From positions 124,001 through 188,000 of the forward strand of contig JABSSW010000031.1 in NCBI GenBank assembly GCA_018902385.1: a stretch of 64,000 nucleotides of DNA, given 5' to 3'. The translations under genes were made by a program, and so were the position numbers. This DNA is from Physcia stellaris (Eukaryota; Ascomycota; Lecanoromycetes; Caliciales; Physciaceae). The notes under the pieces were generated by a model that searched no databases, was not told the DNA's origin, and saw nothing but the letters and a program-made list of their open reading frames with translations. Within the stretch, counting starts at the first letter, position 1. The number at the start of each line of letters is the position of its first letter. This document shows, piece after piece, positions 2,097 through 58,790 of this stretch.

Positions 2097-2660
2097 ACAT
2101 CATGATTTTATACTTTTGCAAATTCGAGAAAAAATGTTGAAATAAATTTATCATCAAAGACAATGTCAAGACGTTATTTTGTTATAAGCTAGCGTGCAAA
2201 CTCTGTACAATAATTCACATTCATCACATGTACGATAAATAGTAATATCACGAATAATAAGCACGTTGCATTTTACATATCTGTAACATTTGCACTATCG
2301 ATGCATCACGGATTCGAACTCAAATGACGCGTACGATGCGACTCATTTCTTGCATCGTATCAAATTATTCGATACAGTGCAAGAAATCGTGATTACGGTT
2401 TGTATCGTGATGCAGATGGTTTTGAATTTCAAAACAACACTGTTACAACTCTAACAAACTAGAATTGCAAATGCATAACGCACGTTAATTGTGCATAAAA
2501 TTTGTGCGTCAAGATTTATGCATGAGACACATTCTCAATTGTGCGTACATAAAATTTTGTGCGATAAAATCACGCAACAACATTCGCGTCAAACACGCGT
2601 CAAACACGCAATTGCGTGAAATTGTGAAAACATCATACAAACTATCGATGTATTACGGTT
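2097..2660. other. AT-rich stretch after the copia fossil, no gene
   Basis: No coding signal. It may hold the rest of the copia element (3' untranslated part and LTR), but no second LTR copy is in the window to prove this. A doubled 11-mer, GCGTCAAACAC, lies near 2588-2609. Base composition shifts to normal GC around 2660, which marks the edge of the hypermutated DNA. Confidence 0.5.
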
Positions 2661-21890: not shown

Positions 21891-23681
21891 TGAATGAAAA
21901 TAATCAAAATGTTTTCGAGCAAAAAAATTGATTATTCAAATTGACGAATACAAAATAATTACAAAAAATCGATTATTGAATGTAAAAAATGTCAAAACTG
22001 CAAATTAATAAAGCGAAAAAATGAAAAATTGACTGAAACGTTATTTTGATTGAAAAAATGTAAATATGTTTGAATGTCGCATAATGTATATATATGCAAA
22101 TAAAAAATCAATATTTTAATAAAACGAATTTGACTAAATGATTTAGCGATTAAAACTGTAAATAAGCATTTTTTACTCAAAAAATCGCGAATTCGAGTCG
22201 TATGATGAACAAAATGTTGAACAATCGAATGAATTATTTCATGATTATAAATTCAAAACGCAAATTCTGACGCGAATGAAAATTCTCAAAATAATCGAAT
22301 TGATAATTTGAAATCACTGTTAACATGTGAAATATAACAAGCAATAAACATTATTTTTTTGTTGTTATGACAACGTTGAAAACTGATGTTGAACGCAAAA
22401 CAGAAAAAAAAATGATTAAAACGTTGACGAAACAACGACGATTGCACAAAAAAATGTCAAAACAAAATCGTGACGAAATGATGTACGAATCGAAAAAAAA
22501 AAAATGTTGAAAACGTCGATCGAAAAAATAAAAACGATGTAATGATATTGACGAAACAAATGATAAAAAAAAAAAAAAATGAAAAAAATCGAAAAGTAAA
22601 AGACGAAAAAGATGAAAATGACGAAAAAAAAAAAAATCGAACAAATGTTTCGACAAACTTCTTGATTTGAATTGTAACAAAAAAAAAACGCAATAAATCG
22701 TAAAATTGCTAATGATCAAAAAAAATCAACTGAATGTATTGATGTCAAAAATCATTTATTTCGTCGTCATTGAAAGCATCGTCGCACGATCACAATTGAA
22801 CGTATATGAAATTTACGACATGATGAAAATTCAAAAACGCGCTGAATCGTGTCAGAAATACGTTTTTGAAATTCAAAATTTCGTATTACAATTCATCGTC
22901 ACGATGTGAAAAAGTGTACGATCGTGCGAATTAATGTATGCAATGCAAAAATTGAAATAAATGCAAAAAAAATTGCAAAAACGACGATTATTGATTGAAA
23001 CAAACTTGCGAAATAAAATTTTTCCGAATTCGTAACAATAATTTCACGAAATGTTGATCATGAAACATCAATTGTTGATTGACAACAAAAACAAAATGAT
23101 TTCAACATTATTGAATTCAAATTTCGTTTTTTTCAAAATTTCAAATTTCATATTTTATTTGCGTAAAATATTGTACGCAATCAACGACATTTGTGTATAA
23201 ACATTAAAATTAATTGTCGTGTTGAAAATTTGTTATCAATGTCATAAAATTGTTTGTTTCATGATATTTTCGAATTAAAATTAAAAGCATCGAAAATTGA
23301 TAACAAAAACAAAATGATTTTTACATCATGAATTGTTGAATTGATTATTTTTAAAATTTTCAATATTCTATTTTAATTGTTTAGAATATTGTACGCAATC
23401 AATGAAAAAATGTATAAAGATCAAAATTATTTTCGATGCGAAAAACTTGTTTGCACTATGATGAAATTGATTTTTTCGTGATGTTTATCGATTTCGTTCA
23501 TTTCAATCTGACTCGAAATTATGAAATTGTGATTAACAATTCGCATTGTCATGATCAATATCAACATCGTTTTTTCACAAACAGCATGAATTCGAACAAT
23601 TTTAATTTTTTAATTATACGATAAAAACTTCACGATTTTGCGTTTCAATATTTTTATAATCACGTTCAAATCGCAAAAATC
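21891..23681. other. AT-rich hypermutated DNA, unassigned
   Basis: The left rim of the 28.6-kb AT-rich block. Frames here are low-complexity (runs of Phe/Ser or Lys) and not evidence of genes. It carries the same near-absence of CpC, CpT, ApG and GpG as the identified fossils, so it is probably an older repeat whose family can no longer be read. Confidence 0.55.
23081..23431. repeat. Diverged tandem duplication, period about 218 bp
   Basis: Two blocks share an A-rich start (ACAAAAACAAAATGAT at 23085 and 23303) and an end containing ATATTGTACGCAATCAA (about 23167 and 23385), giving a constant offset near 218. The middles have drifted. The origin is unknown. Confidence 0.65.
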
Positions 23682-23823
23682 TGCTAGAAACAATGCGATG
23701 AAAATGCAAAAAGTTGAAAAATGCTAAATACAAAATAATCGAAATATATTCATTTGTCAAGTCAAAATTAACTAATTAACTAACAAACAGATGTCAACAA
23801 GCAAACAAAATCAACATTTAACA
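23682..23823 (-). repeat. 3' LTR of gypsy element A (142 bp)
   Basis: It aligns without gaps to 38195-38336, with 7 differences counted by eye. On the element strand it begins TGTTAAA and ends TAGCA, the standard TG...CA form. Confidence 0.92.
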
Positions 23824-26367
23824 ATTTGTTCACAACAAAAAAAAAAAACGCTGTTTTAGTTGTTCATCATTCATATCATTTTTTTTAATCAATCATAATT
23901 TTAGTTTTTATTTTTTTTTCATCATTCGATTCATTTGTTCATCAATAAACGAAATGATTTTCGAAACAACGCGTCGATTGAAAATGTCGATAAAATCAAA
24001 AATTTCGACATAACGAAAAACATTTGCGAAACGATAATGTTAAAAATGATCGAATTGCTAACTGTAAAAATAAATGTAAAAATATTCGCAAACTCGATTG
24101 TCGAAAATTTCGTGATTAATTTAACGATCGAATTGTTAATCGTAAAAATAAATGCAAAAATATTCGTAGTAACTAGTTTAGCGAATCGATCACGTTTGAT
24201 TTTGACTTTGATTGTCAAAAACTTCACAACAATTGACAATGAATTAAATAATTGCAAACGATCAAATAAATGAACGATGAAATTTTGAACGTTTTCGTAA
24301 TTTCGAATCAACTTCATGACATCATCGAGTTCGAACAGATTACGTCACTCATCGAATTGAAAATCGTAATTTTTTTATCGCATCAAATACTTGCTATTTC
24401 GACGTTTTGTTTGTCTTTTGTCAATTAATTTGTCGATTTCGTAAAATCTGACGCGCTCAATATCGCTTTCGACGAAAACAAAATTCGAATGATTCGAACG
24501 TGAACGATTGAAAAAATCGTCTGAGAAAACAGAAATTGACTTTAATTGAATTATGAACAATATCGAGTGTATACGTCAATGAATTGAAAAATTCAATTTG
24601 TAAACAAGACGTTCAATACGTTTCAATACGCGAAAAAATTCAACGAATTGCTGATTAAGTTTAAATTCAAACACAGCAATGAAAAATATGTCGTAATCGT
24701 GATGTAACTTGATCAAAACGTAATTTTTTTCACGCATGTAAATCGATTTGTGCTTGTCGTCGTAATTGCGTTTGATTTTCATTTGAGCAAAAATTATTGA
24801 ATTAACGATTTTCACACGAATTCGAATTGCGAAGTTGAAACTGATGTCAGCGAACGTGTCAATAAATATTTGATTATCAGCATCAACAATGATGACGATT
24901 TCGAACACTTTTCAGAAATCACTAATTTGCAAAAATGTGAATTCGTAAACAATTTCATTCGAATTTTTGTCAATTATAATCGAAACAACATTGTTAATGT
25001 GTCGTTGAATTTTTGATAACACGATTGATCATTTTCTTGAATTTTTCATGATAACTAGATGAAATCGCAAAGCTATTTCGATAATTTGATTTGTTCGTTC
25101 GAATTGATCATTCGTTTGCGAATGATAAACAATGAAATAAAATAATTTTATTTTTAACTTTTTGAAAATGACTGTTCACATTTCATTCAAAAATTTACGA
25201 TTTCGATCAAATATTATAGTCTTGAACAATTTTTAATTCGTTGTATTTAATTTATTCAACAATGTTTTTTTTCATTGAACAACAAATCAAATGAATTTGT
25301 TTAACACAAAAATGATTTTTTTGATGAATTTGCAAAATATCGACATAATTGTATCATAATCATTTATGAAAATTGACAACGTCAAAATGAAATCTATAAT
25401 GATAATATGAAACGATATTGTTGAAATTAAAATGAATTGCAACGATTCGTATAAAACATGTTTTCTGATTTGATAAACTTAACAATTCGAACAATGTTTA
25501 AAATAATTTCTCAAATAACGAGAAAATTCACGAATGTATCAGAAAAAAATTATCTGTTCGAAACATTTGACGTAATCAAAATGTTTCTTATCATGAATTA
25601 ATTCGAAAATATTTTGCACAACTGAATGAAATATACATAATTTGCGTGATTCGTAAACATAATCGTCAATAATAAAATCATTCGAACGAAAAATAAAATC
25701 GTTTTTTTTTTTTACAGAAAGACAAATTTGCAACGATTTCGTTGCTAATTTCAGCGTTTAATTGCTTCGAAATGCGTTTTCAATTAAAATCAGTTTTATA
25801 ATCATTCAATATACGTTGCTTAAATTTCGATTTCATTTCGACAAATGAAATGATAAATAGCGCGTCGAATTCGTCGTCATCATGATTAAATGCATTGACG
25901 TTGTCGCTAATCAATTTGAATAAAACATTCGAAACGATATGTTGCTTGTCAGACTTGTGTCGAATGTCGAGATCGAAACGTTGTATGTAATCTGAAATTT
26001 TAACAAGTCGAAAATTGAATTTGTCAATGAACGATGTAATAAATAATGTCTGATTAACTATGCTCAATGTTGCATCGTGATTCGTATAAATTACGATTTT
26101 ATCAGTCGTCGCGATGTCGACAATTTCGATAATATGTTTGATTTTCTTGAAAATTCATACGATATCAACTATTTCAAACTTGATTGATCAATAACGTGTC
26201 TCGACTGAAATAAGCAAACGACTAAGAAAAAAAATCGATTCGATAACATGTCGAAATGAAAATTGATCAAATGATAATTTTTTCAAATAAACTTTTTTGA
26301 CGTAATAAAACATAATCTCAAAATCAAATTTTTTGTTAACGTTTAAATCAATGAACAATTGTCGTTT

Positions 26368-26550
26368 TGTAAAAATTCAAAATTAATAGAATTAATGTGA
26401 AAGATCGTTTGACTCTATATAATAAACTAATCGCAAGAAACGCATAATTGATCTTGACAAAATTCAAAATCAAAATTAGATTTTGAATTCTAAGCGAATA
26501 TATCGTTTCGATTGTCGAAAGATTTTCTGTCAAGCAATCTGATCATTACA
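26368..26550 (-). repeat. 3' LTR of gypsy element B (183 bp)
   Basis: Gap-free match to 33307-33489, with 14 differences counted by eye, all C/T at CpT or CpC or the complement. It starts TGTAATGATC and ends TTTTTACA on the element strand. Confidence 0.93.
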
Positions 26551-27183
26551 TTTTTTTTTTTAAACAACAAACAGATAAACAATCATATTGCGCATCATCA
26601 AAAAGATTTTCGCAAACATCGTAAATTGATTTCAAATCGTGTACGAAATGAATATTTGAAACAAAAATGTTAAAATCATCTGAGTGTCAACAAAACATAT
26701 TTCTTTTTATCTTTCGACAACAACAACATGATCGAAAAATTCTGAATCATTTGTAAAATAGTCTCGTTCTCAGTCAATTTGTATGCGCAATTGACTGAAT
26801 CAACGATAATTTATGACATCGATCGCGTTCGAATTGTCAATCAAACGACGACGAGTGAAAGTTCAATTTTGTGATGATCGTGACTAATAATGAACAGTTT
26901 TTAAATCGTTTGACGACGCAATTTCGTGAAAAACATTCGAGTTTGCGTCGAACGACAATAAAAATGAACATCGAATACTTCGAAAATGAAAGTAGTTTTC
27001 AAATTACGCATTTTCAAAATTTGACAACTATTCTAATTCAAATAAAAAGTTTTTCAAATTTTCAATACTTTTTTGCTGAACGTGTACGATGAACATTCAT
27101 GTTGACAATTGATTTAATGTAACGATCGAAAAATTGAATTTTCATGCAATCAATGTTCGAACATTCGTTCGTTCATTGTTTGT

Positions 27184-27738
27184 ATGATTTTCACAAACGT
27201 CAATCAAAAAACATGCGACAATTGCATTTACATGCATCGTGTTTTCGAATGTTTTTTTAACAAATACGTTTTCGTTACAAGTTTTGATTCGATAATTGAG
27301 CAGCACAATATTTCAATTACGTTCGATAATCGAATTGATACGCGTGTTCACGACGATGCGATTGACAATTCATCGTCGTATTTTTCTGTGCGAGTCAATC
27401 GACGAAAATTTGAAATATTATCAGTTTCAACGATTTTGTTATCGTTTTCATCGCAGTCAATGTTTGCAATGACATCGATTGCGACGACGATTCAAACGCA
27501 ATTCGATCAATCATCAAATGAAAATGAAAATATTTTCATGAACGATGAAAACGATTCGATGTTTTCGTCGTCAATTTCATCGTCGTTCGATATCGCGAGT
27601 GAAAAATTCGAATCGACGAACGAAAACGAGATATCAAAATCAAATCAGTCAGCACAATCATCGATTGTTCAAGATTTCAAAGCGATGTCGTTTTTTGATT
27701 TTTCGAAATCAAAATCATTTTTTTCTGATTCTGATTGA
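27184..27738 (+). other. Antisense open frame in element B, Cys-motif and acidic Ser-rich tail
   Basis: A 184-codon plus-strand frame lies between the integrase zone and 3' LTR of element B, opposite to its pol. It has CDNCIYMHRVFECFFNKY near its start and a long acidic Ser/Asn-rich tail. A second locus at 49165 shares the Cys pattern (CENCVFKHKTSNCSFNKY) and similar upstream DNA (the GCATTTTCAA block), so both derive from one protein family. Some gypsy elements carry antisense frames here; alternatively it is a captured or separately inserted gene. It is a fossil, and function is unknown. Confidence 0.5.
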
Positions 27739-30700
27739 TTGCAACGACGATTTGAACAACGTCGTCAAAATGAAAAAAATGATGCACGTCTCGAGCGTGT
27801 TCATGTTTTCGTCGTCAAATTTAAAAAGTCGATCGTTGCGTTACGACGTCAAAAAAAAACGTTCGATCGTTCGATGTCGTGATATCGATAACGTTGAAAG
27901 TTAAAAATTTCGTAAAACATAATTTTCGAAATGAGAATTGAAAAAAACGATGAATTTTCTTTGTTGAAAATTAAAAGTTCGACGTTGAACGTTATTTGTT
28001 TTTATGAATCATGTTACGAGAAATCAATGTTATGAAAAGCGATTTCATCGTGTTTGCGCTACATGCGACGATACGAAAAAATCAATCGACTATTTCTTAA
28101 TTGCATTGATTCATGATTTATTCGTATTTCAAATCAAATTTCACAGAACGAAACAAAAGTGCGAAAGTTTGAATAATAAATACGATTTTTTTTCACTTTT
28201 CGAAAATTTCAAAAAGAAAAAACGACAGTAACAACAACAATAACATAAAAAAAAAACAACAAAAAATTCGATTTTTCGCGTGAAATCACTTTGTATGAAT
28301 CGTACACGATTCGACAAACATTTTTTTTTTTTAAATGATTCATACAATGTCATCGTTTTCAAAAAGTTCATCATTCGAAAATGACATATAATTTTCATTC
28401 GGATTTTTCTTTTTAGCATTTCGAATTTTGCGCGATTTGTCACGTTTTTTTTTCGATGTTTCGACTTTTTTCGCAACGACGTCAATGATTTCAGATTGTT
28501 TCTTTGTTTTGAACGAACGTTCGCGATTTTTAAACATACATCAATTTTTGTTCATTTTTTCATTCACATTGATCAATTTCATTCGATCATCATTGATAAA
28601 ATATTTATTTGACGACTTTTCAAACGATTTGAGCACATAAATATTCAAGATTTCATTGCGTACGATTTCGTAAAAATCATATCAATCGATTTCGAACTTT
28701 TTTGACTTTTTCGTTCGTATCAATATTTTGTCGTTTTCGTGAAAAATTTTTCTTTTTATTTTCGCATTTCAGATTGCTTTGTTTTTTTAACACGTTGCAT
28801 GATTTTCTTGAATGCTTTTGCGCGTTCACGATTCAAAAATGAAATCGAATTTATTTTCTCGTCATAAAAATTTGAAATTGATTCATCGACATCGTCAAAC
28901 AAAATCGAATTAACTTCATAAAAAAAAAAAAAAATGAAAAGTCAATCGTTGTATGCGTTCGAATTCGCGTGACGAACAAAATCTGATTCAAATAAATGTT
29001 TCAGTTTTTGATGAGATTTTCAATGCAATATTTGATCAACATATGATTCAAAACGTCATTGAAACGTTTCATTGTTTCGTTCGTTCTTGAATGATAAAAA
29101 ATAATATTTCTATGTTTGATTTCAAACAACGCAAATGTCTTGATTATAACAGATGTTCACAAATTGACATCTTTATCAATGATGATTTTCTTGAAAATTT
29201 CGTAATCACGATAAATATCGTTGATCACGAAATTCGCAAAAATTTCGAAAATTGTCTCAAAAATAACGCGTGCAACAAATCATTTGATCGCATAATCAAT
29301 AACAATCACGATTCATTTGTTATCATTGACAATGATAAATAATGATTCGATCAAATCGAAATTTCAACGTTCAAATGATTGACTTTTATTTGATCAAGTT
29401 TCTAAAAAATGCATTACATCTTTTTTGACGTTTTTGAATTTGACGATCAATTGACATTTTGAACACGTTCGTACAAAATGTTTGATGTTTTTGCGCATGT
29501 CGAATCATCATTGTTTGATTTTAATGATGTCAAACAAAATCGTATTCGAACAATGATCATAAATCTTGTGAACATGATTCAAATAGTTTGCACGAGTTCA
29601 AAATTCGATGTAAAAAATTCAATTGTCAACGAGAAAATCTCGATGATGCGAAACATTATCGTCGTTCAATTTGAATTGATTTTCATATTTTTTCAATTTC
29701 GCATTTCATTTTATTTCATTTGACAGAATTTCATCACGTGCATAAATTATCATCGTTTCGTCGAAAATGATGATACGCAAATCTATTTGCAAAAATCGCA
29801 AACGATAATCGCTTTTTCGACTCAAAATATCGAACACAATCATTTCAGATTTCGATTTATATTTGATGTTCAAACGATATTTTCCGAATTCAACGAATCA
29901 ACGAGTCAAACGATTCGATGATTTCATCGTATTTTTCAAATGTTGCAATTCAGCGTGATTCGTACGCATCAAAATTGTCGTTTCATTTTTCACGTAACAT
30001 TTTCATTTTCGCAGACTTTTCTTGATGATCAAAAGTTCACGTTCGTGAATCGCATAATTACGTTCGACGAAAAAAAATGTTTTGTTCTCGAAAACAATAA
30101 AATGTTCTTTGTCATCGAAATCTACTTGATAAAACATCGTTTTTCATTCGAAGTTCGAGACATCGATTTCAATGATGAATGACAAAAACGTATCAAATTG
30201 CGTCAATACACGATCATTACACATGACGTTTTTGATGATCGTAAAGACGTTTTTGATCGAGAATGTTATAAACATCGATTTGTATTTGCGATTTTCAATT
30301 TTCTGAATAAACTCATAGAATGATTCAGTGATAATGACGAAATTTTTTATGAATTTTCGATAATAAACACAAAAATTCAAAAAAAAACGAACATCGTGTA
30401 TCGTTTGAAACGACGATCAATTCTGAATGATTTTCAATTTGATTTCGTTCATGCGCATTTCATCATTGTTTACGATATGTTCACAAAATTCAATTTGCTG
30501 TTGAAAAAAAGAACATTTCGACGATTTCGCATAATAATCATGTTTATGAAAAGTTTCAATCACGAACTTCACATGCTCGAGATGCTTTTCGTCGTTTTTG
30601 AAATAAATCAATATGTCGTTCAAATAAACGATCACAAATTTGTTCAGATACGATTTCAGCATATCATTCATGATTGCTTGAAAGATCGCAAAAACATTAA

Positions 30701-33306
30701 TCAGTTCGAAAAACATGACGCAAAATTCATATTTGTCTCGTTTGATATTGAATGTTGTCTTGTGACGATTTTTTTCGATCACATTGATTTGTCAATAATC
30801 ATTAGTTAAATCAATTTTGCTAAAATTTCTCGCTATTTCGATCATGTCTAAACAATTTTGAATTTTCGACAATGAATAGTCATTTTTTTGCGTCATCGCG
30901 TTGAAAATCTTATAATTTATATACATACGTCAGAAGTCATTTTTCTTTTTGACAAAGAAAATTGACGTTTTTCATGACGACGTGCTTGATCGTATTAGAT
31001 TTTTTTTTGTTAAATAATCGATTTGAATAGTTTGTTCGTTCAATTGCTCTTTAGAAAATTCGTACGAGAACTTGTTTATTGATTTAGCGTCTTCAATATC
31101 AATGCGATGATTTTGCGATTTTTCCGAAAATGATTGATTCGAAAAATCGTTTTTAAAAACTTTTTTCAACACATCGAAATTCAAAATTTTGTTCAATTTC
31201 GCGTTGTCGATAATGTGTTGAATGAAAACAAATTTTTCAAGCGATTTGACGATTTTTTGATCAATAATACGTACAACGTACAGATAGACTTGAGCGTTTT
31301 TTCGTATCAATCGCTCGAAAACACGTCTCGTTACAACTTGAATTTCAAATGACTGATTTTCGAGAATTTGCAAACGAAAACTGTGATTTTTCATGTTCGC
31401 AAACAGAAATTTCTGATTTTCGTTTGTTACACGCATATCGAGCGTATTGTAATCAAAAACTAAACGATATTTCTGTCAGAAATTTTCGTTTAAAATCAGA
31501 TCGTTATTCATATTAAAAATCAAACAATCAATGATTGTATGAAATTCATCTTTGTTTCAATTAAACTTAGTGAAATCAACGACGTCAACAGTTTTATCAT
31601 TTTTCAATTGCACTTTGTCAAAAAAATGTTGTAATTTTAATTTTAACAAATCGACAATGCGTTGAGCAATGAAACAATGAAAAACATTCGAGTTTGCAAA
31701 TACAACGACGCGACGTTTTTTTTTTGCGTTCACATCGAAACGTAATCACGTTTTCGACATACGTTTATTAACATTCAGATTGATTAAAAACATCAATTCG
31801 TTTTTCGATTGTACTTTTGAAATGTACGAATTTTTTTCACGAATTTCAAAGTTTCAAGATTTCGACGTCTTTATACTTGACATTTTCGAAATCGTGATTG
31901 TGATAAACGAAATCTGTTCATTTTCAACTATCAAATCGTCTTTTTTGTCGATTTTGAACGATTCATCGTGATTATCGTGCAATTCATGCGACGACGATTT
32001 CAAACGTTTTTCGAGTCTTTGTTTCTGTCACGATCTTTATCGTTTCGACGAGATCGTCAATTTGACGAATCACTTTCAAACACGATGAAATTCGAACAAA
32101 CTGAGAACAGATGATTCGTCTGATCACAATTGTAACATTTTTTCGCGAAAGCATTCATAACGTTTAAATTTTTTTGTTGTTTATTGTTTTGAGCGACAGA
32201 AATTTGTGCTGATTGATTCGTCGCTGAAATTGCTCGAAAAGCACGAAAAATATATTTTTTTGCGTTGACATTTTCGTGTTTCGAAACATTCGTCATCATG
32301 TTGTGCAAACTCATATTCGAATACATTTGATTCTGATTGAGAATGTAATTTCGAATATCGATTTTGAGTTCGTCACGATATCTTTTTTTGATCGCAAATT
32401 CGATAACGTGCTCGCGAATGTTTTCGTACATCGACGTGAATTTGCTATTGTAATCGACGATTTTGTTGTATGCGTCAAACTGAATGATTTCGTTGTATAT
32501 CTTGAAAAATTTCTGTTGTCAATCGTGTTCGTCTCAACGAATGAAAAAATATTTTTTGAATTCGAATCATTTGTCATCAGACTTTTGCAAATGAGCAAAC
32601 AAAGAAATAAATCACTGATCAATTTTGTTCTCGAGATATTGCTCGATGACGATAAAAACGTTGATTTTGTTGATTAAATATGAATTGAACACATGAAATT
32701 TCTCGTGTTTGAATAGAAAATTTTTGATTTTAGCATGATTACGTTCACGTTCTTGAAAAATTGAAAAACGACGATCGATAATTTGATCATCGAAAATGAT
32801 TTGCGTTTCAACTTGCGCGTCAAACAAAATAAAATCAAACAAATGATCGTCGTCGTTAAAATCAACGATGCTCGCAAAGAATTGATTGTGATTCATGAGT
32901 AAATTGATTCGTGATGTACGTTCACGATCGCGACGAAATTGATCATTTAATTAAACGACGACATTATTTTCGGCGACGACATCGTTTTCGACGAAATCAA
33001 CGTTTTTTTCGTTCGAATTTTCGACGAGCTCGTCAACGATTTCATCGAATTGATTGTCGAATTTTGTTGCAATGTTCGCAAAATTTGAAAAATCGAAAAC
33101 AATCGTACGTTGTGAAAAATCATCTGAACGATCACGACGACGCTTTAAATTATCATCTTGAATAAACATGATGATTAATGAATAAAAAACTTTAAAAGTT
33201 TTGAATTCTCAAATGAATATCAAGTGCAACGAAAGCAATTTGAATTGACAAAAAGCAATGAGCACAGTCAAATACACTGTAAATGTAAAAAAAATGATGT
33301 TATCAA

Positions 33307-33489
33307 TGTAAAAATTCAAAACTAATAGAATTAATGTGAAAAATCGTTTGATTCTATATAATAGACTAATCGCAAAAAGCGCATAATTGACTTTGACAAA
33401 ATTCAAAATCAGAATTAGATTCTGAATTCTAAGCGAATATATCGTTTCGATTGTCGAAAAATTTTCTGTCAAGCAATTTGGTCACTACA
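33307..33489 (-). repeat. 5' LTR of gypsy element B (183 bp)
   Basis: It starts TGTAGTGACC on the element strand and pairs with 26368-26550. Just inside it, on the element strand, lies TGATAACAT, which also lies just inside the 5' LTR of element A. This is the position of a primer-binding site, but I cannot assign the tRNA. Confidence 0.92.
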
Positions 33490-38194: not shown

Positions 38195-38336
38195 TGCTAA
38201 AAACAATGCGATGAAAATGCAAAAAGTTGAAAAATGCTAAATACAAAATAATCGAAATATATTCATTTGTCAAGTCAAAATTAGTTAATTAATTAACAGA
38301 CAGATGTCAACAAACAAACAAAATCAATATTTAACA
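38195..38336 (-). repeat. 5' LTR of gypsy element A (142 bp)
   Basis: It pairs with 23682-23823 and is followed by AAATT against AAATC on the far side, consistent with a 5-bp target duplication altered by one C/T difference. The shared TGATAACAT sits immediately inside it. Confidence 0.92.
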
Positions 38337-40642: not shown

Positions 40643-43600
40643 TTGATATCACATTTCGTATTTTACATTTCTGACAATTTTGTATTTTTCGATTTGTTCG
40701 AATCGATGTTTATTTTTCAAATTGTTTACGTTTTTTCGTTTTGTCGTCATCGTCGTGTTTTTGTTTTCAATAATTTTCTGTATGATCAAATTCTTTCGTA
40801 CAATCAATACTGTGCAATCTGTCAGCGAAAATGAATCAAAAATGATATTTTATAACTTATTTCGTCTTCATATCCGATTGTGATAAAATGTTTTTCTATT
40901 CACGATTCATTTTTCGAGTAAATTCACGTTTCTGACATCATATTTATTTCGTTTCTGACATCATATCTATTTAAATTACGATGACTATTATTGAGAAATC
41001 GAATTTCATCATCGCGATTTATGATATCAAAATTGCGATTAAACAATTCAACGTTAAACACGCAATTCAAATTCAACGAAAAAATCGTTACGTTTGTAAC
41101 ACGTGTGAAACAATTTTCAATAAAAATTATAATAAAACAAAACATTTTTCGATTCATAAAAGCGATCGGATTTGAAAATGCGAAAAATACAATCGTTTTT
41201 TTCGACGTCAAAATCATTAAAATCGACATTTATTAACTCATCAAACGAACATGAAATCGAAAATCATCGTATCGATCAAAATTGCATATGTTTCGAATAT
41301 CGACGTTTTTGTTTCTCAATTGTATTTGCAGCATGTTGCGTTTGACAAATTGTTACAAAATTTTCGAACAAAATACAATCGTTGTTTTTTCAAAATTGCA
41401 TGTTCGTTTTGCGATATTCTGATGTTTTTCGACGATACGAAATGATTTGTTTTCGAAAAAAATGTTGAATACGATTTTCACATGATTTTTCGTCAATCAT
41501 TGCATTATAAATTTGATGACGATGAACAACGATTGATAATCGTATGTGTTTCGTGTCAAAAACATTCACGAATTATGTTTCAAATAAAATTCTGATTTGA
41601 CGAAATAATGTTTTTATTTCATCGATCGAAAATTTTTTTGTCATTTTTGAAACTGATGACGAATCTGAAAAAAATTCAAAACGTTAACGATATTCGAAAC
41701 AATTGAATCATTTACAAAATCGTTTCAAATAAATCGTTATGATTCAATATGAAAATGTTTATTCACGTTTGTATCAAAATTTCATGTATGTTTTCAAGAA
41801 TTCGCGAACGTTGATTTTTTATTTCGATATTATCGAAAAGTTTTTTCAATCGTTTTCGCAAATTCTCGATAAAAATCAAAATGCAAAAAATTTAACGATT
41901 GCGACAAATTGATTGAAAATTCACAATCGATTTTTGCAAAATTATATCATTTTCGTCGTCGATATTTTCATTGTAAAATTTTCGACATTCGAAATTTTCG
42001 ATTCAAATAAAAAAAAATCGTGTTACAAATTCGATTTCATCGTGCGCGTCGATCAATATAATTCGAAAATTCACGACGAAAATTTTCGTTTCAATCGATT
42101 TTTTGAAAAACAAAACATGATCAACGACGATCGTTGATATTTTAAAAATAACAAAAATCTGAAAATTCGTATATTTTTTTGATTGTATTTTTATGAAATC
42201 GAACATTTTCGTAAAAAAAAAAAATTTTTATTTCAAAATTGCATTCAAGAACGCACAATACAAATTGAATTGAAACGTTTCATATTTTCGCGACGATCAT
42301 TATTGAGCAACATGAATGTACATGCGCGTGAAAAAATTGCGCATTTTTCAAAACACGAATAAATTAATGATCGAACGAAAAAAACGTCAAATGACTGAAC
42401 GTTTCGTTACGACGAAATTGATCAAACAAAACGTTTATGAATTTCACACGATTATCAACGAAAATTTAACGATCACAATTTCAATTCAATTGCGAATCGA
42501 TTTTATTTATTGAATACAAATCGAACAAAAAATCAACATCATAATGAAAGCAACATGTCGATTTCATTTGTTTTTCACGACGACATTTTTCGAAAAATGA
42601 TTTGAATACGTCGAAATTTTTGCAAATACAAACAATCGCGACATCATTTCGAATAATCGATTTTGAAAAATTGTAATATATTATCATTTTCGATGAAAAG
42701 CATTTAAAATTTATTTTTTGCGAAATTCGAAAATATTCGATTTCGAAAAACTAAAAAAATGATGAAACGAATGAAATTTCAATTAAAAAAAATCATTCAC
42801 ATTTATGTTTTATTTTGAATTCAGAAATTCATATTCGAAATGATCGTCGAAAATTTCATACGAACAAACGTTTCGAATAAAAACAAAAAATCTGAATTAC
42901 ACGTTTTGATTATGAAACATCAAATTCACACGTGTCGTTCGAATATGTGTCGCAAAAAATTGATCAACGAATCACGATGTAAAATTGAATTTTTTCAATT
43001 ATTATCATTCGTTATTGAATGCGTGAACGACGATCAACGTTACATTTACAAACGATTTAAAGAAAAAAATCGTTGAATTTTTTCATATAACGTTCAAATG
43101 CTTTTGATTTGAAACGCACACATGAATATTCAATACATGATCGAAATTTATTTTGTCGTTTATGTCAACAAATATGTTATCAAAGTCGAATCGAACGAAA
43201 TGTACAATTTTTTTATTCGTAACGCGATCAAAGAACATTTAATGATTCGTAAAATGAATTCGATAAAAATGATGATATTGATGTTGAATTACGAAATGTT
43301 TCGATGTAACAAAATTGTAATATACGTCGATATCACGTTATCAAATGAACGATTCGTCTTCGTAAAATCATTATGACAATTAAAAAGAAACTTGATTGAG
43401 CAAAAAAAATAAAAAAACGAAAAGTCAAATTCTTTTTACAAAAATCAAGTCGAAAAGTATTTTGTTCGTTTTTCAAATTCATTTTACGATTAATTGACGT
43501 ATTTCGACTATCACGCGCAATGTAATTTGACAAAATCGAACGCAAATCTTGAACGTGAAATTATGAATAATGTAAAAAACGTTGTCAAAAAAAAAAACAA

Positions 43601-45027
43601 ATATGATTTTTTCATTGACGATCACGTTACACATGAATTGACGTATTCAGCACATTTTAATTCGAAATATTGAACGACGTTTAATCGACGACGAAACGTT
43701 TTTTTACGAAAAATTGCTGATGATTCGATCATGACGAACAAAAAAAAAAATTCGAAAATTCATATCGAATTTTACAATTTCATGTTATCGAAATCATTTC
43801 ATGATGTTTTATTCAAACGAATATCGAAATTTAAATTTTTGAACAACATTTCAAATGACTAAACGTGACGTAAAAATCAACATTTTTTATTTGAAAATCG
43901 TTCAACGTCTGTTTTTTGAAAATTTCGAATTCGAAAATGAATGCATACGACAAAAATTTTTTGAAATGCAAAACAAAATTCGATCGATTTCGATGCTCGA
44001 CGACAATTTAAATTTCGATGAAAATCAATATGTGACATATCAACGAATCATAAACAATTTTTTTTTCGTCACAGTTCGAGAATCACGAAAAACAAATTTT
44101 TTCGTTACAAGTTCAAAAAAAACGAACAAATCGTTTTTGTTGCACATTCTCGTGTCATGATACAATGATCGTAAACTAAAAATTCTGAAAATGATTTTCA
44201 TCGATATTGTTGCAGAAAACGTCGAAGAAAAAATCATTCACAACAATTTGCATATCAATTTTCAAAACGATTTCGATGATGAATCGTTGTTGTCAAATAT
44301 ATTTCGCATCGAGAATTCGCTAAACGATTTCAAAAAAATCAGAATTTTTATTATTGATGAAATTTTCATGATCAACAATGACATGTTCAGTTTTGTTTCA
44401 AAACTGTTTATCAAATTACACAAAAATGCATTTTCTTTTGAAAATTTTCATGTTATTGTTTTCGACGATTTATTGCAATTGTCATCGATTCGAAATCGTC
44501 AAATTTTTCATTTTTTCGTTTGAAAGATTTTCATTTCTTTATTCTTGAAACGTTTCAGAAAACACGACAACGATTCAAAATTCGAACGATTTTTTGAAAC
44601 GATGCGTTTTGACAAAATCACAAATGAAATCATGAATATTTTTCATCGACAAAAACAAAAATTCCGAATCGAAAATTTAATTCATAAATGTATTTCGTTT
44701 CATTTTCGCAAAAACGAAATGTTACGACTTAACGCGTTATTGCTGCAACGAATTTGCAATTCATCTGTTATTGTTCACAAAATTCAAAATAAAAAGCGAA
44801 ATGAGAATTTGACAAAATTCGTACACAAACAATTTGTCAAAAAAAACAATTTGCTCAATGAAATGATGATGATTTCTGAAACACGAATTATGTTTTTGAA
44901 AAATAATTTCATTGTTCGAAACATAATCAACGACAATTGTGAATTGATCATCAAAATAAATGACAAAAATTATTTTATCGTGATTTTTTCAATGATCGAA
45001 CGAATAAAAATTAAAATTTTTCTTTAA
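40643..45027 (+). mobile_element. Dead Helitron (Rep/helicase rolling-circle transposon)
   Basis: Plus-strand fragments follow Helitron order: a finger-like segment CNTCETIFNKNYNKTKHFSIH (about 41.1 kb); regions at 41.9-42.5 kb; HQIHTCRSNMCRKKL with following Cys (42.84-43.08 kb), as in the Helitron Rep-helicase HxH/C region; MNIQYM...YVNKYVIKVE (43.12-43.38 kb); then a PIF1-type helicase with IIDEIFMINNDMF as Walker B and VFDDLLQLSSIRNRQIF (44.19-44.52 kb); and a helicase C-terminal part to 45.03 kb. Stops and frame changes separate every fragment and the HUH nuclease centre cannot be read, so it is non-functional. Ends (5' TC, 3' hairpin-CTRR) were not found; the limits given are those of coding homology. 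Composition shows the CpY-type hypermutation. Confidence 0.75.
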
Positions 45028-45548
45028 TCGTTTCAACGTTATTGATTTCGTTTTTAAAAACTGTATGTAATTTCTTACACGAATTATAAAACGTTGTATG
45101 AAATATTTTACATTCGAATTCAATTTTCGATTTTGAACGCTTTCGTTTTGATCGTTCATAAAATTCAATCGTTCATCATGACGAATATATCGATAAATTT
45201 TGATAACAATATGTTCGTCGCAAAACACGCATACATCGCATTGAATAAAACGCAACGATGAAATCAAATATTCATTTCGACTTTATGCAAAGAAATTTTT
45301 CGAATGAACGAGCAAACAATAGTCGAATATGATCGTTTAAAAAATATTGTCACGAAAATGTATGAAACAAAAGTTAACGTGATGAATTGACGATCGAATC
45401 GATTTGTAATCATATTTTTTCAACAATTTTTTCTTTAATTTTCTTGATGAAAATTTGTTTTGATTTTTTGTTTTTCACATTCGATTTTGTCGTTGATACG
45501 AAAAATGTTTTAATTTTACGAATTTTTCGAGAATAATTTCGTGTTAAT

Positions 45549-45731
45549 TGTAAGATGTCATGCAATGATATGAGTAAACAACAAAATTCTAGATTGCAAA
45601 ACTAACTATGAAAATTTGACAAATCATATGTAAATGATTTGATCATAGCGAAATCCGAATCCGAATTTCGATGTGATAAGATAAAAATTCAAATATTTAT
45701 CAGAGTTTCAACACATAATACGCTCGTCACA
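45549..45731 (-). repeat. LTR of element C, left copy (183 bp)
   Basis: Gap-free match to 47970-48152 with 17 differences counted by eye (14 at CpC/CpT, 3 at CpA). It begins TGTAAGATG and ends CGTCACA on the plus strand, so TG...CA holds in both orientations. Confidence 0.93.
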
Positions 45732-47969
45732 TTATTTTTCGTTCTTTTTCAGTTTCGTTTCGAAACGATTAATCATTTTTTTCTTTTTTCATCGATCGAC
45801 GATTCGAGAAATATCGTTGATTAAAACGTCGATAATTGAACGAATCATTGCGAAAGCTGAAATGATCGAAGCAGATGCAACAAACGTGATTTGAAATTCG
45901 AAATCGAAAAAATGGCGAAGATGTAGACGAAAACGCGAACGAAAACGTAAACGTAAATCGAAATCATGCAAATGAGAATTTTGATTGCAAAAATGAGAAT
46001 TTTGATTGCAACGAAATGTAAAAGATGTCTGATTTTTTGTATGATGAAATGATCGATTTCTTTGACAAAACAAAAACAAAACGAATGATTTTCGCAAACG
46101 TAAACTGCTGAAAACTTTTCGAATTCGAGCTTTTCAAATTCTGACTAATCGGTGTTTTTTGATTGACTGCAGACAGAAAGTAAACGATTATTCGTGACTG
46201 ATATGATTGACGAAATGAACGAGTATCGTCGCTTTGCGAAAAAACAAAATTTTTTTAATGTTGACATAAATCAAATGATTTAGATTTTTCACGAAACATG
46301 TGAATCAAATCATCGATGATGAAATGAGATTTTTGATGTTTTGATACAAATGTTCGAGAAAATGAAGTCGAAAATGTAAGTGAATTGATTGATAGTTTTT
46401 TCATCGATTTCGATGTGATATTGAGTGTCGCAATAAAGAAATCCGAACATTTTGATGATATTGATTCAAATATCGATGTAAATGTTGCAAAGAAAATAAA
46501 TGAAACAAACGAACAATTGAACGTTGCAATTTCGACGCGCTTTGATGTAAAATTTCGTGTGATTAACATTGTTGCGATTTTCGTTTGCTTTGATGAGATT
46601 TCGTGTGACGCAATCGAGAAATTCGAACGAATTGATGATATCGATTTGAAAATTGTTGCAAAATAAAATATATGATTTCGTGATGTTGCAAAGAAAGTCG
46701 ACGAAACAAGCGAAACAAACGAAACAGACGAACAAATGATTGTTGACTTTTTTCGATTTTGTACGTAAATTTTGATGTAAAAAATCGGAAATTCGAATTC
46801 TTTGATGTGACGAACGAAACGACAAATTTCTGAACATGATGTTCGCGTATGTGATCGTGAAACTTGTTTTTGAAATTGAAATTTTGTTCGCAATGCTTGC
46901 AAATGATTTTGAAACAAGCGATTTTTTGCTTGATATGTTTCAGAAATCGAATCATTGACGAGAATTGAGCGAAGCATTCGACGCACGAATGATATTGAAA
47001 CGAAAAATGTGAAACATGCGAATCAAATGTAGTAAATGATTGATTTGATGTTTTCGTTGCAAATTCAATGAAAATAGAAAATGCACATGTTAAATTTTTG
47101 TCGAAATTTTGTATGATGATGAAATTTGACTGATTGTTGAATTATGCGAAAGCAAAATTTCGAACGCATTTGAACAATAAATCGAGCACATTTGATTTTC
47201 GATATTGATGTTGAATTTGCTGAAAATATTGCAGAAATTTCAACATTTTGCTGTATAAATCAAATTTTTCAATATCACGCGATAATGTTGAATCAAAAAT
47301 ATCGATATTGACGAAAATCGATGTTGATTTTGCGATTTTAATGATTTCAATTTCTGTCTGCTTTGCAGTTTTCTGCTCGATCAATTCAGTTTGTTTCTGA
47401 GCTTCTTGCTCGGTCAATTCGGTTTTTTTTTGTCATTTTTGACTGATCAACTCGGCTTTTTGAATGTATTGTGCAATTCGATGTCGAATAGTTTCAGAAC
47501 ATTTGATTGATCGTTGATAATGCTGATTAATTGTAAACGTTTCAGAAAATTCGTCGTCACAATATTGACAATGCATTTTGAAAACAGAAGAGAATAATCG
47601 ATTCGCTAAATAATTGAATAGAATTTTGAAAAATTCTCGAACAGAAAAAATGACTTCGATATTGAAAAAACTGTGACAGAATTTTTGATACAGTCGTTTT
47701 TCGATGATGTAATGTATTGAAATGAAATTTTATTTAGAATTCGCGTATTTCGACGAGAATGTAAATAGATTGTTGTATTGATCTGAGTAAACGTGTAAAA
47801 TGAAGAAATCGAGATTCGTTGATTGATGATTTAGAAACTAAAATCTGATCGACGAAATTTTGTTGCGAAATAAGATTCGCAATGCTCGATTCAACTGTCT
47901 GTCTTCAGACTATGATTGAGACATGTACGAAGACATATTTCGATTGAATTTGATAAGAATTTAGAATAA

Positions 47970-48152
47970 TGTAAGATGTCATGCAATGATATGAATAAAC
48001 AACAGAATTCTAGATTACAAAACTAACTATGAAAATCTGACAGATCATATGTAGATGATTTGATTATAACGAAATTCGAATTCGAATTTCGATGTGATAA
48101 AATAAGAGTTCAAACATTTATCAGAATTTCAACACATAGTACGTTCGTCACA
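47970..48152 (-). repeat. LTR of element C, right copy (183 bp)
   Basis: It pairs with 45549-45731 and is followed directly by the TTAAT target duplication. Its length equals that of element B's LTR, but the sequences are unrelated. Confidence 0.93.
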
Positions 48153-50540
48153 TTAATGAAGAAAAATTGAATGTGATGAAACAAATTCGTCGAGAAATGA
48201 CACAAATTGCATTATTGAATTTATTTCGAATGTGTATACGAATCAAATTTATTCATGACGTGTGCAATATCGTGTTTCGTTATTATTCTTGATATTGTCA
48301 ACAAACGTACATCGACATTTTTGCATTTCTGTACGAAAAAGATGTTCGCAATGTGACAATTTCAATTCTTAATTACAAATACATGATATACGATTATTTC
48401 GTTCAAATTGCTGTGAATTGAAATGATAATTTTCGCAAACAAGAAATATTTTTTTTTCATTTCGTTTGATATTCGCATTTTGAAACTTTGCATGAAAAAT
48501 GTTTAAATTTCAATGCAATTATCGAAAATTTTTTAACAATCATTATTTTTTTTCAAATCAAATTTGTACGATTGCAATGAATTATCAAAAGAAATTACAA
48601 ATTTAACATATGTGAAATTGTTTTCAACGAATACTAAATAAAACGATTTTTTCTTATCATATTGTGAATGAAATTGAAAATTTCATTGATTGTGTTGTTC
48701 ATATTCATTCGATCAATGATTCATTAACGTATTTTCACGATCAACATTTAATTGCAATATTGTTTTTTTTTTCTGTTCATGCATCACGATGTTTAATCAA
48801 GCAAAACTCTGAATCATTTGTAAATTGTATTCATTCGCATGTGTGAAATGTATGTTTATTATAACAATGAATCAAAATGAAATCGCGATTTTCGTCAATA
48901 TCGCGCAAATAAATAAAACAACGAAAAATCAAAATGTTCAGTTTGACGATGACAATTAGTTAAAATTTCGTTTTTTTTTTTCGATCGCTCACAACTCGTC
49001 AATATTTATGATACGCGTTCGATGTTTTTGCAATTTGCAAATCGAATATTTGCGAATTTGACGCATTTTCAACAATTGCAAACGTTGATCATTCAAATAC
49101 GCATTTTTGTGAAAAAATGAAAATTTGTTAATTTGACGTCGCAAAAATCGTTGAAAATTCAATAATGTCGTTTTGCGATCGATGCGCGATCACGAAAAAA
49201 AACAAAATCAATTTCGTTTTTTTTCAATGCATTCAAACACGACGTCGTTTCGAAATTTGCGAAAATTGCGTATTCAAACACAAAACATCGAATTGTTCAT
49301 TCAATAAATATTTTCGAATTTCAATGTGTCAAATATTAAATTGTTTTCAAATTCGATGCGTGTTCAATTCGAAATCGTGAAAATGATGTTTCAAATCATC
49401 GTCACAAACGTAAAATTCGTTGACGAAAAAAAAAAAACTAAAATCTCGATCAAAAATGATGAAAATTATTTTGTCGCAAATTTGTTTTTTTCGTGACGAT
49501 TATTCAACAAACGTCGTCGATTGTTGTTTTCAACAACGATCGCGACAAATGATCGCGCGCAATTCAATGAAAACGATATCGACGACGAATCATTAAATAA
49601 TCGTTCGAACGTCGTCGACGATTCATCATTATTTTTGTTTCAAAACGAAAAAAAAAACGAAAACGAAAATTTTCAATTTGAACAACATCATAACGATTAC
49701 GACGTCGAATTCGATTTCGATATCGAATTTGATTCAAATGATATTGTTTTTATCATCGAAAAAACAAAATCGACAAAAGCATTTTTTTCAAAATGAAATA
49801 AATTTTGAATTTTAATTTCACGACGATCAATCGTCGTAAAAAAAAATTTATTTTCGCTTTTTGAATGTTTTCGATTCGAATGAATGCGTAAAATCTACGC
49901 GACGTCGAATCGAATTGTGACGAAAAAAAAAACGAAAAAAGAAAAAAAAAACGAAAAAAACGAAATAAAAAACGAAATAAAAAAATAAATATGTACGTTG
50001 AAAAAATGAAATCATGTTATGAAATTTTTTGTATCGAAAAACGATTTCATTGCAGAAATCGTTATACACGATACTGTGAAAAAATTTCTGTAATTTTTGA
50101 AATAACTATTTTAAATCTTTGTGAAATAATCAGTTCGTTTGTTTATTTTTTCGTTTTGTTTTTTAATTAATTGATTCAATTGATACGAACAAATTATCTA
50201 GCTCATTGATTCAACTAAAGCAAAATTTTGATGATTGAAAATCAACTGATATTGTCAAACAGATGATTTCACAAAATCGTGTTTTGACATGAAACATCAT
50301 GAAATATTTCTGATATACAAATTTTTTGTTTTTATTTTACAAGTTAATCATGCTTCAACGAATTCAAAATTGACAAATGTGAATTGTACGAATATCTTTT
50401 TTTTCAATTTAAAAGAACATTAATTGAAAAATGATAATCAATGAGCATTGATTGCGATCAAACAATTGTTTTCGTTCATCTTATTTCAAATCATGAAATG
50501 AATGTCGTGAAGTTGATATTTTCATCGACAAGAAGAAACT
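48153..50540. other. AT-rich hypermutated DNA with a fossil Cys-motif frame
   Basis: The right rim of the AT-rich block. Plus-strand frames at 49165-49380 and 49521-49796 carry CDRC...CENCVFKHKTSNCSFNKY and an acidic Asp/Glu/Asn-rich stretch, matching in layout the antisense frame in element B (27.2-27.7 kb). No other family is readable. Composition returns to normal near 50,540. Confidence 0.5.
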
Positions 50541-50831
50541 TTATTTCGATACGACTGACATATCAACCTTAACTCTTTCTGATCACTCTGTAGCACGCTG
50601 TTGCACAATCAACATCAATGCCTTGTTGCCTCCTACTAAAAGTAGACAGTTTCCTCCGAGCGTGGTTCCTACACGCTTAACAGAAGCCTCAAATCTTGAA
50701 TAGTACAAGGACACCAGCAAAGTCTGACCCCAAGCTCTTTTTAAACGTAGGTTCTCACTCCCAGTATCTACATCTGTACCTATGATATAACTCGAAGTCT
50801 AGGCTTCAAGCTGGTAGATACGTCTCCAACA

Positions 50832-51644: not shown

Positions 51645-51920
51645 TTGTTGTTGTTACCAGAACAGCCCAGGCTGATAGGTCTCAAATGACTGCGGTATAG
51701 GAAAGGACATGTCATGATGCTGGTTGTATGTAGCACTAACGGTTCGCTATTTGGCAAGACATGGATACCAACCTGGAGGCTGAGGCATGAAGAGGAAAGT
51801 AGAACAATTCTCGGGCTGAAATTCCACTGGTCTATTTGGTATTTATTGGTGTGTCCAAAGAGAGAGTGAGAGGCATGAGATAGGGGGGCAAGGGGGGCTT
51901 GCGGCGCTCGTTCCTCATTA

Positions 51921-58769: not shown

Positions 58770-58790
58770 ATTATCCTGCTAGGCGCGAGG

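Follow-up and report, generated by a model that had tools for sequence, protein, structure and literature searches.

A RIP-like signature led by CpC and CpT in the transposons of a 64-kb window of Physcia stellaris DNA

Introduction

To our knowledge, what determines the neighbour preference of RIP is still an open question; the survey of Clutterbuck 2011 is reportedly often cited for RIP context preferences. The 64-kb stretch of Physcia stellaris DNA analyzed here (the window) carries an AT-rich block at positions 21891-50540, in which an earlier note, made from the sequence alone, had proposed a RIP-like process with an altered preference for the 3' neighbour of the mutated C. Has such a process marked this locus, and which neighbours does it prefer? 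If an enzyme occurring in nature had the reverse order, the residues that decide the preference could be located by comparing it with the RID and DIM-2 proteins of species with ordinary RIP. RIP-type mutation of repeats is known in fungi and, as far as the accessible parts of the literature go, the new element is the reversed context preference, CpC and CpT over CpA and CpG. All counts, repeat pairs and reading frames reported below were drawn from this one window.

Results

The AT-rich block has lost nearly all of its CpC. Only 18 CC/GG dinucleotides are present in 21891-50540, compared to a mean of 1103 and a minimum of 1015 over 200 shuffles of the bases. Expressed as strand-symmetric odds ratios, the values are 0.02 for CpC/GpG, 0.31 for CpT/ApG, 1.30 for CpA/TpG, 3.01 for CpG and 0.40 for TpA, and the densities per kb relative to genic DNA of the same window are 0.005x for CpC, 0.24x for CpT, 0.92x for CpA and 1.015x for CpG. 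The description of the block in the earlier note is borne out: C stands almost only before purines and G almost only after pyrimidines (88% of C and 89% of G), the counts in six 60-base rows are reproduced (TpA 9, CpG 31, CpA+TpG 43, CpT+ApG 8, CpC 0 and GpG 0), and TpA is scarce and CpG abundant, as the odds ratios of 0.40 and 3.01 indicate. The TpA/ApT ratio is 0.41, which is lower than the genic 0.64.

The 3' neighbour of C has a strong effect, seen in the composition, the rate model and the repeat pairs. On the 5' side, A and T are about equivalent, CpT surviving similarly after both (ACT 0.398, TCT 0.391), and G is perhaps protective, for which there is a hint only. TpC is not depleted in the block (1.01x genic density overall, 1.81x for TCA and 1.75x for TCG). 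The strand balance of surviving CT versus AG in 1.5-kb bins was without clear pattern.

To delimit the signature, tracts were called by a two-state HMM trained on the main block itself (Table 1). At the left edge of the main tract, the final genic CC/GG is at 21859 and the following one at 23024; at the right edge, the final inner CC/GG is at 47454 and the following one at 50567. The edges are located within tens of bases and the flanks retain normal CpC. The third tract starts and stops 65 bp inward of the outer ends of the terminal repeats of a 1.3-kb element, and these outer edges retain CC/GG. The polyketide synthase (PKS) that appears to harbour the short hairpin tract has lovastatin nonaketide synthase as its best PDB match, which fits a filamentous ascomycete.

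Table 1. Mutated tracts and transposon features in the window
Feature	Position	Strand	Details
Second tract, like signature	1..2654		HMM LLR 541; 5 CC/GG; Copia reverse transcriptase within; continues past left end of window
Ty1/Copia reverse transcriptase frame	552..2093	+	PF07727 E 3.8e-37, TGA read as Trp
Short AT-rich CC/GG-free tract in hairpin element, apparent PKS intron (weak case)	11242..11397		HMM LLR 37; 0 CC/GG in 156 bp; hairpin
Saturated CpC/CpT-mutated tract (main tract)	21866..50554		HMM LLR 6806; 18 CC/GG in 28,689 bp; 27.7% GC; both edges sharp
Element C, LTR element interrupted by element A	23682..38320	-	LTRs 23682-23807, 38195-38320; 5-bp duplication AAATC
Element A, Ty3/Gypsy-type LTR retrotransposon, 7.1 kb, nested in element C	26368..33489	-	LTRs 26368-26550, 33307-33489; TG...CA ends; 4-bp duplication GTTT
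PIF1-like helicase frame	43576..45024	+	PF05970 E 1.7e-8, TGA read as Trp
Element B, 2.6-kb LTR element	45549..48152		LTRs 45549-45731, 47970-48152; 5-bp duplication TTAAT
Left terminal repeat, 1.3-kb element	57487..57717		Outer ~65 bp apparently unmutated, used as reference
Third tract, interior of 1.3-kb repeat-flanked element in genic DNA	57552..58707		HMM LLR 158; 2 CC/GG
Right terminal repeat, 1.3-kb element	58542..58772		Outer ~65 bp apparently unmutated

The main block harbours LTR retrotransposons, one nested in another, together with a helicase frame. The frame of element A (28854-32036) carries RVT_1, RNase H and Integrase_H2C2 domains (Pfam) and matches Ty3 Gag-Pol with an E value of 1e-54; in two of its pieces, element C gave matches to RNase H and SH3_Tf2-1 that are below cut-off. 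The helicase frame is possibly a Helitron remnant. Flanking duplications were sought with both ends allowed to shift by 30 bp, which gave 2 candidates for element A and 5 for element C (for both, the candidate whose start coincides with base 1 of the repeat was chosen), and 1 for element B; none was found for the 1.3-kb element with the same freedom. No relatives of the element A polymerase or the Copia frame were found in viral contigs, and exact patterns of the 1.3-kb element in viral contigs and of the 51.9-kb hairpin in genome and viral contigs gave 0 matches and hence no second copy of either. Scans for tRNAs and Rfam families found nothing.

The terminal repeats of elements A, B and C and of the 1.3-kb element were compared pairwise. 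In three pairs, the repeats were cut back to TG...CA termini that are bordered by short duplications; the fourth pair was shortened by 3 bp without the support of a duplication. The trimmed pairs differ at 62 sites and all 62 differences are C:G/T:A transitions, distributed over 14 of 18 CpC, 45 of 73 CpT, 3 of 102 CpA and none of 44 CpG sites (Fisher test: CpC versus CpA+CpG, p = 2.9e-14; CpT versus CpA+CpG, p = 9.4e-24). The 63 differing sites reported in the earlier note correspond to the untrimmed ungapped matches, and their split into 45 CpT, 14 CpC, 4 CpA and 0 CpG is exact; these matches hold 67 differences, and the 4 that are not transitions had been left unmentioned. Among the pairs, the CpA changes are confined to element B (3 trimmed, 4 untrimmed) and CpA is therefore not wholly spared. 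With the apparently unmutated outer ~65 bp of the 1.3-kb element as reference for polarity, 10 of 14 CpC and 10 of 18 CpT were changed, compared to 0 of 18 CpA and 0 of 14 CpG. This element spans 57487-58772; the figure in the "57.5-kb element" of the earlier note must therefore denote a position. By strand, its differences are 18 G>A and 7 C>T, as raw counts whatever the number of targets.

The consequences for coding capacity were assessed in eight transposon frames, selected for the lack of any stop once TGA is translated as Trp; the absence of TAA and TAG in them results from this rule by construction. Their 4178 codons include no TGG, 70 TGA, 1 Gly codon, no Pro codon and 175 Gln codons, and two TGA codons of the Ty3-like frame align with conserved Trp residues of Ty3. 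Their sequence makes the codons GGN (Gly), CCN (Pro) and TGG (Trp) targets. As CAA, CAG and CGA cannot be turned into stops by these changes, inactivation proceeds via missense changes and TGG-to-TGA stops. Open frames nearly without Gly, Pro and Trp persist in the tracts, and gene finders could mistake them for genes.

Four rates applied to the genic DNA of the window nearly reproduce the trinucleotides of the block: about 5 for CpC, 1.6 for CpT, 0.06-0.08 for CpA and about 0 for CpG. This model, a coarse grid search that takes genic DNA as the ancestor and fits imperfectly, lies 8497 log units above no mutation, 6322 above a CpA-led order and 34 below a saturated fit. In an earlier rate fit, later superseded by the grid, four starts led to different optima and the best was kept; it predicted 1.97 GCT per kb compared to 3.19 observed, which hints at less frequent mutation of GpCpT.

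Indices of the TpA/ApT type are blind to the signature, as had been anticipated: 0 of 56 windows were flagged at any threshold tried, and by the standard RIP indices genes look more RIP-like than the saturated tract does. Since common indices rank such a tract below genes, index-based verdicts of "no RIP" may err for some species. By comparison, the ratio (CpC+GpG)/(TpC+GpA) separates the two, at 0.79 for the genic stretch and 0.004 for the block.

Discussion

Within the window, transposon tracts with sharp edges have undergone directional C-to-T mutation in the context order CpC>CpT>>CpA>CpG. The composition, the repeat pairs, the reading frames and the fitted rates each support the RIP-like process with altered 3'-neighbour preference that had been proposed, and we are fairly confident that the agent is a C-to-T mutator of the RIP kind, presumably repeat-directed, that acts on transposons and prefers a 3' pyrimidine, with CpC above CpT, CpA rarely hit and CpG undetectably so. 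Such a mutator would find its targets through DNA homology, would act before meiosis and is probably a RID- or DIM-2-type cytosine methyltransferase whose 3'-neighbour preference has shifted from the usual CpA. The 14 genic frames scanned with Pfam (of 74 genic segments of at least 100 aa) included no gene for RID, DIM-2 or a deaminase. We lean slightly towards a genome-defence mutator with a specificity that is the reverse of classical RIP, in which RID or DIM-2 would have lost recognition of CpA and CpG and gained a readout of the 3' pyrimidine, or another enzyme altogether would be at work. If so, it would represent a type of RIP-like system that is invisible to surveys by CpA/TpA indices.

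Several other origins were weighed. Deamination of transposon DNA, or of the intermediates of retrotransposons, by a cytosine deaminase (of the AID/APOBEC type or another) would account for C-to-T changes on both strands and for trimmed-pair differences that are all transitions. Known deaminases select chiefly by the 5' neighbour, however, and the main preference here is 3', CpT survival being similar after A and T; furthermore, the tracts with this mark also include the helicase frame and the short hairpin, both presumably of non-retroelement origin. We regard a deaminase as quite improbable. UV-type mutation has in its favour that CpC and CpT are both dipyrimidines. But TpC, a main UV site, is undepleted and the change ends abruptly at the tract edges, so that this origin has a negligible probability. 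For a compositional bias of the ancestor, or an error of assembly, no supporting evidence was found, and either is highly implausible in view of the directional differences between paired repeats, the CpC retained at the outer edges and TGA at two conserved Trp positions of the Ty3-like frame. Methylation of CpG followed by deamination was also tried and was rejected, with CpG at 1.015x genic density and 0 of 44 CpG sites differing.

Two further alternatives were weighed. Classical CpA-preferring RIP at a late stage, having exhausted CpA, might leave only the CpC and CpT changes visible. Values from Colletotrichum truncatum resemble such exhaustion: in the accessible part of that source, five families are termed CpT-biased, with a substrate index of 0.08-0.12 and TpA/ApT of at least 1.61. 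In the block, by contrast, CpA still reaches 92% of its density in genic DNA, TpA/ApT is lower than in genic DNA and the CpA-led model is the worse by the 6322 log units given above, which makes late classical RIP hardly credible; like UV and ancestral bias, CpA exhaustion was rejected on window counts. Alternatively, DIM-2-type heterochromatin methylation with deamination outside the sexual cycle, which would not be strict RIP, may have produced the changes. It draws on the accessible parts of published work, in which functional dim2 promotes mitotic C-to-T mutation in Zymoseptoria tritici, N. crassa DIM-2 methylates preferentially at CpT (according to the Z. tritici dim2 paper) and CHH methylation in Z. 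tritici is highest at CA with CC second. The same sources place the Z. tritici mutations at CpA and leave CpT nearly unmethylated, a mismatch with the window, and slow decay should add other types of change, of which the trimmed pairs show 0. We regard this origin as unlikely, and retain the RIP-like mutator as the preferred explanation.

In the parts of the RIP-context literature that were accessible, the Clutterbuck 2011 survey aside, no report of a CpC-led, CpA-sparing RIP was found, which does not establish its absence from print. Classical RIP of the Neurospora crassa, Zymoseptoria and Leptosphaeria type has in common with the window C-to-T changes on both strands in transposons, a 3'-neighbour preference and AT-rich tracts. 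Its leading CpA and raised TpA are absent here (CpA 3/102, TpA/ApT 0.41, 0/56 windows flagged), and the order CpC>CpT>>CpA>CpG is classical RIP turned round. As far as the sources at hand report, the order is CpA>CpT>CpG>CpC in N. crassa and CpA~CpG, then CpT>CpC in T. reesei, 240 of 242 mutations are at CpA and 2 at CpT in Z. tritici, and about 90% are at CpA in L. maculans. In the available portions of the accounts of Magnaporthe, Botrytis, Sclerotinia and Anisogramma, CpT is also a target, but it goes along with CpA and a CpC signature is not named. Partial likenesses, again from sources seen in extract, are the depletion of CpC in S. nodorum repeats (Stagonospora), the CpC-to-TpT double mutations of Monilinia and the undepleted CpA of Monacrosporium haptotylum; in these fungi, however, CpA-to-TpA is the main form or TpA is raised, whereas TpA/ApT in the block is below genic. 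The CpG-type mutation of Microbotryum, Tuber, rusts and Rhizoctonia likewise shows a preference other than CpA, but the target named in the passages available is CpG, which is untouched here; the class labels for Rhizoctonia look doubtful because Table 2 of that paper gives CpC as the commonest class and its text gives CpG. Finally, an engineered variant of M.MpeI that, in the accessible part of its description, methylates mainly CCA and CCC differs in being a laboratory-made bacterial enzyme, but indicates that a C5-methyltransferase can shift from CG to CC.

Composition and boundaries of the mutated tracts

The earlier note had described the AT-rich DNA as keeping C before purines, and a recount of its six sampled rows bore this out (CpA+TpG 43, CpG 31, CpT+ApG 8, CpC/GpG 0), with TpA at 9. 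Over positions 21891-50540, odds ratios were 0.02 for CpC/GpG, 0.31 for CpT/ApG, 1.30 for CpA/TpG, 3.01 for CpG and 0.40 for TpA, and only 18 CC/GG were present, compared to a mean of 1103 in 200 base shuffles (lowest at least 1015). Relative to genic DNA of the same window, densities per kb in this AT-rich block were 0.005 for CpC, 0.24 for CpT, 0.92 for CpA, 1.015 for CpG and 1.27 for TpA. CpG seems abundant because C and G disappeared from other contexts; per kb it is as dense as in genic DNA. On the 5' side, CpT survived equally after A and T (ACT 0.398, TCT 0.391) and less after G (GCT 0.185), as mutation of the G of GCT on the opposite strand would produce; GCT was observed at 3.19 per kb versus 1.97 predicted by the cruder rate fit below, so GpCpT may be mutated somewhat less often. 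Surviving CpT and TpT differed at following positions (for example, C at +3 in 6.8% versus 16%).

An HMM, for which the block and genic DNA served as training data, called four CC/GG-poor tracts; only the three tracts besides the block thus count as independent tests. The edges are sharp: on the left of the block, genic CC/GG extend up to 21859 and the next one lies at 23024.

Coordinates of tracts, elements and neighbouring features
Feature	Position	Remark
HMM tract	1-2654	left (second) tract
HMM tract	11242-11397
HMM tract	21866-50554	block
HMM tract	57552-58707	in the 1.3-kb element
Element A	26368-33489	Ty3/Gypsy-type, inside element C
Element C	23682-38320	contains element A
Element B	45549-48152	short
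1.3-kb element	57487-58772	in genic DNA
PIF1-like helicase frame	43576-45024	Pfam
Copia reverse transcriptase	552-2093	in left tract
Methyltransf_23 match	55683-56396	Pfam, genic frame
Tandem repeat, 36-bp	2745-3032	immediately outside left tract
Hairpin element	11182-11520	fold z -14.35
Apparent intron	11165-11604	PKS ketosynthase region
Imperfect 150-bp palindrome	51919-52068	unmutated, MITE-like
Exact 20-bp direct repeat	57401-57420, 58791-58810	on either side of the 1.3-kb element, beyond the terminal repeats

Pfam searches of 14 genic frames identified a highly reducing polyketide synthase, a short-chain dehydrogenase, an aldo/keto reductase and APH-family, DUF924, DUF6919 and methyltransferase proteins, with a PigL_N match marginally under cut-off; such a gene content fits a filamentous ascomycete. 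The hairpin element, within the apparent intron, has nearly perfect terminal inverted repeats of about 60 bp, a middle without CC/GG and ends with CC/GG, and looks like a MITE or an introner-like insertion. The palindrome is 81% self-complementary. A stretch near 57456-57480 resembles it by eye, with CpG-to-CpA changes; a search tolerating 3 mismatches, however, returned nothing beyond this stretch itself.

Differences between terminal repeats

Four terminal-repeat pairs, those of the LTR retroelements A, B and C and of the 1.3-kb element, were recovered independently of the earlier note, whose claim that they differ at CpC and CpT held. Over the entire ungapped matches there were 67 differing sites, comprising 63 transitions (45 CpT, 14 CpC, 4 CpA and 0 CpG) and 4 others. 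Element ends were sought as TG...CA (or TA) with equal flanks. This search gave flanking duplications for elements B (TTAAT), C (AAATC) and A (the 4-bp GTTT), each from the repeat's first base and, for A and C, chosen among further candidates; the 1.3-kb element yielded no such duplication. A, B and C were cut to the duplication-supported ends, and the fourth pair was cut by 3 bp without such support, which removed its single non-transition site. Trimming cost one CpA transition and the 4 non-transition sites; all 62 remaining differences were transitions, affecting 14 of 18 CpC, 45 of 73 CpT, 3 of 102 CpA (all within element B) and 0 of 44 CpG sites.

Both terminal repeats of the 1.3-kb element retain most CC/GG in their outermost 65 bp or so, and the matching inner-copy positions are mutated. 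Scoring the first 63 and last 91 positions against the outer copy gave changes at 10/14 CpC, 10/18 CpT, 0/18 CpA and 0/14 CpG. The last stretch starts 26 bp within the tract, so that a few of its reference sites may themselves be mutated. The mutated tract begins and ends 65 bp inside both element ends, as if the repeat ends were protected. The repeat differences comprised 18 G>A versus 7 C>T, a possible strand imbalance.

Rates by neighbouring base

Mutation was modelled from an ancestor represented by genic stretches of the window, with each C, on either strand, mutable at one of four rates according to its 3' neighbour. Given a coarse grid and genic DNA as a mere stand-in for the elements' own ancestors, the optimum was CpC 5, CpT 1.6, CpA 0.06 (profile best 0.08) and CpG 0, which was 8497 log units better than no mutation and 6322 better than a scaled Neurospora-like order (CpA 1, CpT 0.4, CpG 0.1, CpC 0.05); a saturated fit exceeded it by 34. 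A cruder fit that preceded it, run from four starts that reached differing optima, gave at its best CpC saturated, CpT 1.5 and CpA and CpG zero, with a predicted GC content of 28.4% versus 27.7% observed.

Effects on reading frames

CpC/CpT changes turn TGG into TGA and alter GGN and CCN, and never make stops of CAA, CAG or CGA. In the block, open segments with a minimum length of 100 aa (n=33, 4537 aa) contained no Gly, no Trp and 0.04% Pro, compared to 6.5%, 1.6% and 6.4% in genic ones (n=74, 12,438 aa); gene finders could call such frames in 21891-50540 genes. Reading TGA as Trp, frame 28854-32036 is open over 1061 codons, some 720 residues of which can be aligned with Ty3 Gag-Pol (E 1e-54). 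It holds 23 TGA, 0 TGG, 0 TAA/TAG and 41 Gln codons, compared to 27 and 25 TAA/TAG in the two other forward frames, and at two of its TGA codons the aligned Ty3 residue is Trp.

Under TGA = Trp, the block contained 143 frames of at least 90 aa and the left tract another 9. Among 20 scanned with Pfam, the element-A polymerase, Copia and PIF1 frames exceeded the curated cut-off, three had transposon-type matches under it (RNase H 3.9e-5, SH3_Tf2-1 1.1e-4, zinc knuckle 0.05), and the remaining 14 gave no match up to 0.1 or merely unlikely ones. Eight frames (4178 codons) together held 0 TGG, 70 TGA, 0 TAA/TAG, 175 Gln, 91 CGA, 1 Gly and 0 Pro codons; the lack of TAA/TAG is by construction, as they were selected as open, and that of TGG is not. 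Six are among the Pfam-matched frames; the other two (33625-35937 and 35898-37277) were taken, by position, as parts of element C.

RIP indices

As the earlier note had anticipated, TpA/ApT-type indices miss the mutation: none of 56 1-kb windows passed any threshold tried (TpA/ApT 0.89 or 1.1; substrate 1.03 or 0.75; composite >0). TpA/ApT was lower in the block than in the genic stretch 3001-21500 (0.41 versus 0.64) and (CpA+TpG)/(ApC+GpT) was higher (1.40 versus 1.27), so both shift away from the RIP side. The thresholds 0.89 and 1.03 appear in the RIPCAL paper (PMC2621366), as does the index (CpC+GpG)/(TpC+GpA), which fell from 0.79 in genic DNA to 0.004 in the block.

Mechanism and comparison with known systems

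Combined, these results show that mutation in the transposon tracts is directional, affects both strands and prefers a 3' pyrimidine, CpC first. A 3'-neighbour rule is usual for C5-methyltransferases and RIP; deaminases read mainly the 5' side. Targeting would be by homology and the enzyme probably of methyltransferase type. The Methyltransf_23 match in the window presumably does not represent a DNA methyltransferase family. A C5-methyltransferase derived from M.MpeI with a CC preference has been made (PMC10899764), so such a change of specificity is possible. The observation of CpC/CpT-directed mutation is firm, and it is best read as a RIP-like process in which the neighbour preference is reversed; the process works like RIP yet lacks the canonical CpA feature.

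The order CpC>CpT>>CpA>CpG had no match in the literature passages compared, Clutterbuck 2011 not being among them. Reported orders are CpA>CpT>CpG>CpC in N. crassa and CpA~CpG, then CpT>CpC, in T. reesei (PMC5496416). In Z. tritici, 240 of 242 progeny mutations were at CpA (PMC10294615), as are those of Dim2, and CHH methylation is most frequent at CA, next at CC and almost nil at CT; N. crassa DIM-2 reportedly prefers CT (PMC8016269). CpA, CpT and CpG signatures are named in a survey of ten genomes, whose text nowhere contains the term CpC (PMC4352252), and a survey across the fungal kingdom, with 1,239 species in the k-mer screen, concludes that RIP-like defences have the CpA preference in common (PMC12543289). 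In Colletotrichum truncatum CpT is seemingly dominant after CpA exhaustion (PMC6180176), unlike in the window. Among the nearest cases, S. nodorum has CpC in the depleted set, but TpA is the sole raised product (PMC2621366); in M. haptotylum CpA is not lost, yet TpA is raised (PMC3828140); in Rhizoctonia a table puts CpC as commonest, contradicting the paper's own text (PMC4014442); and Monilinia shows CpC-to-TpT double mutations alongside classical CpA ones (PMC8959702).
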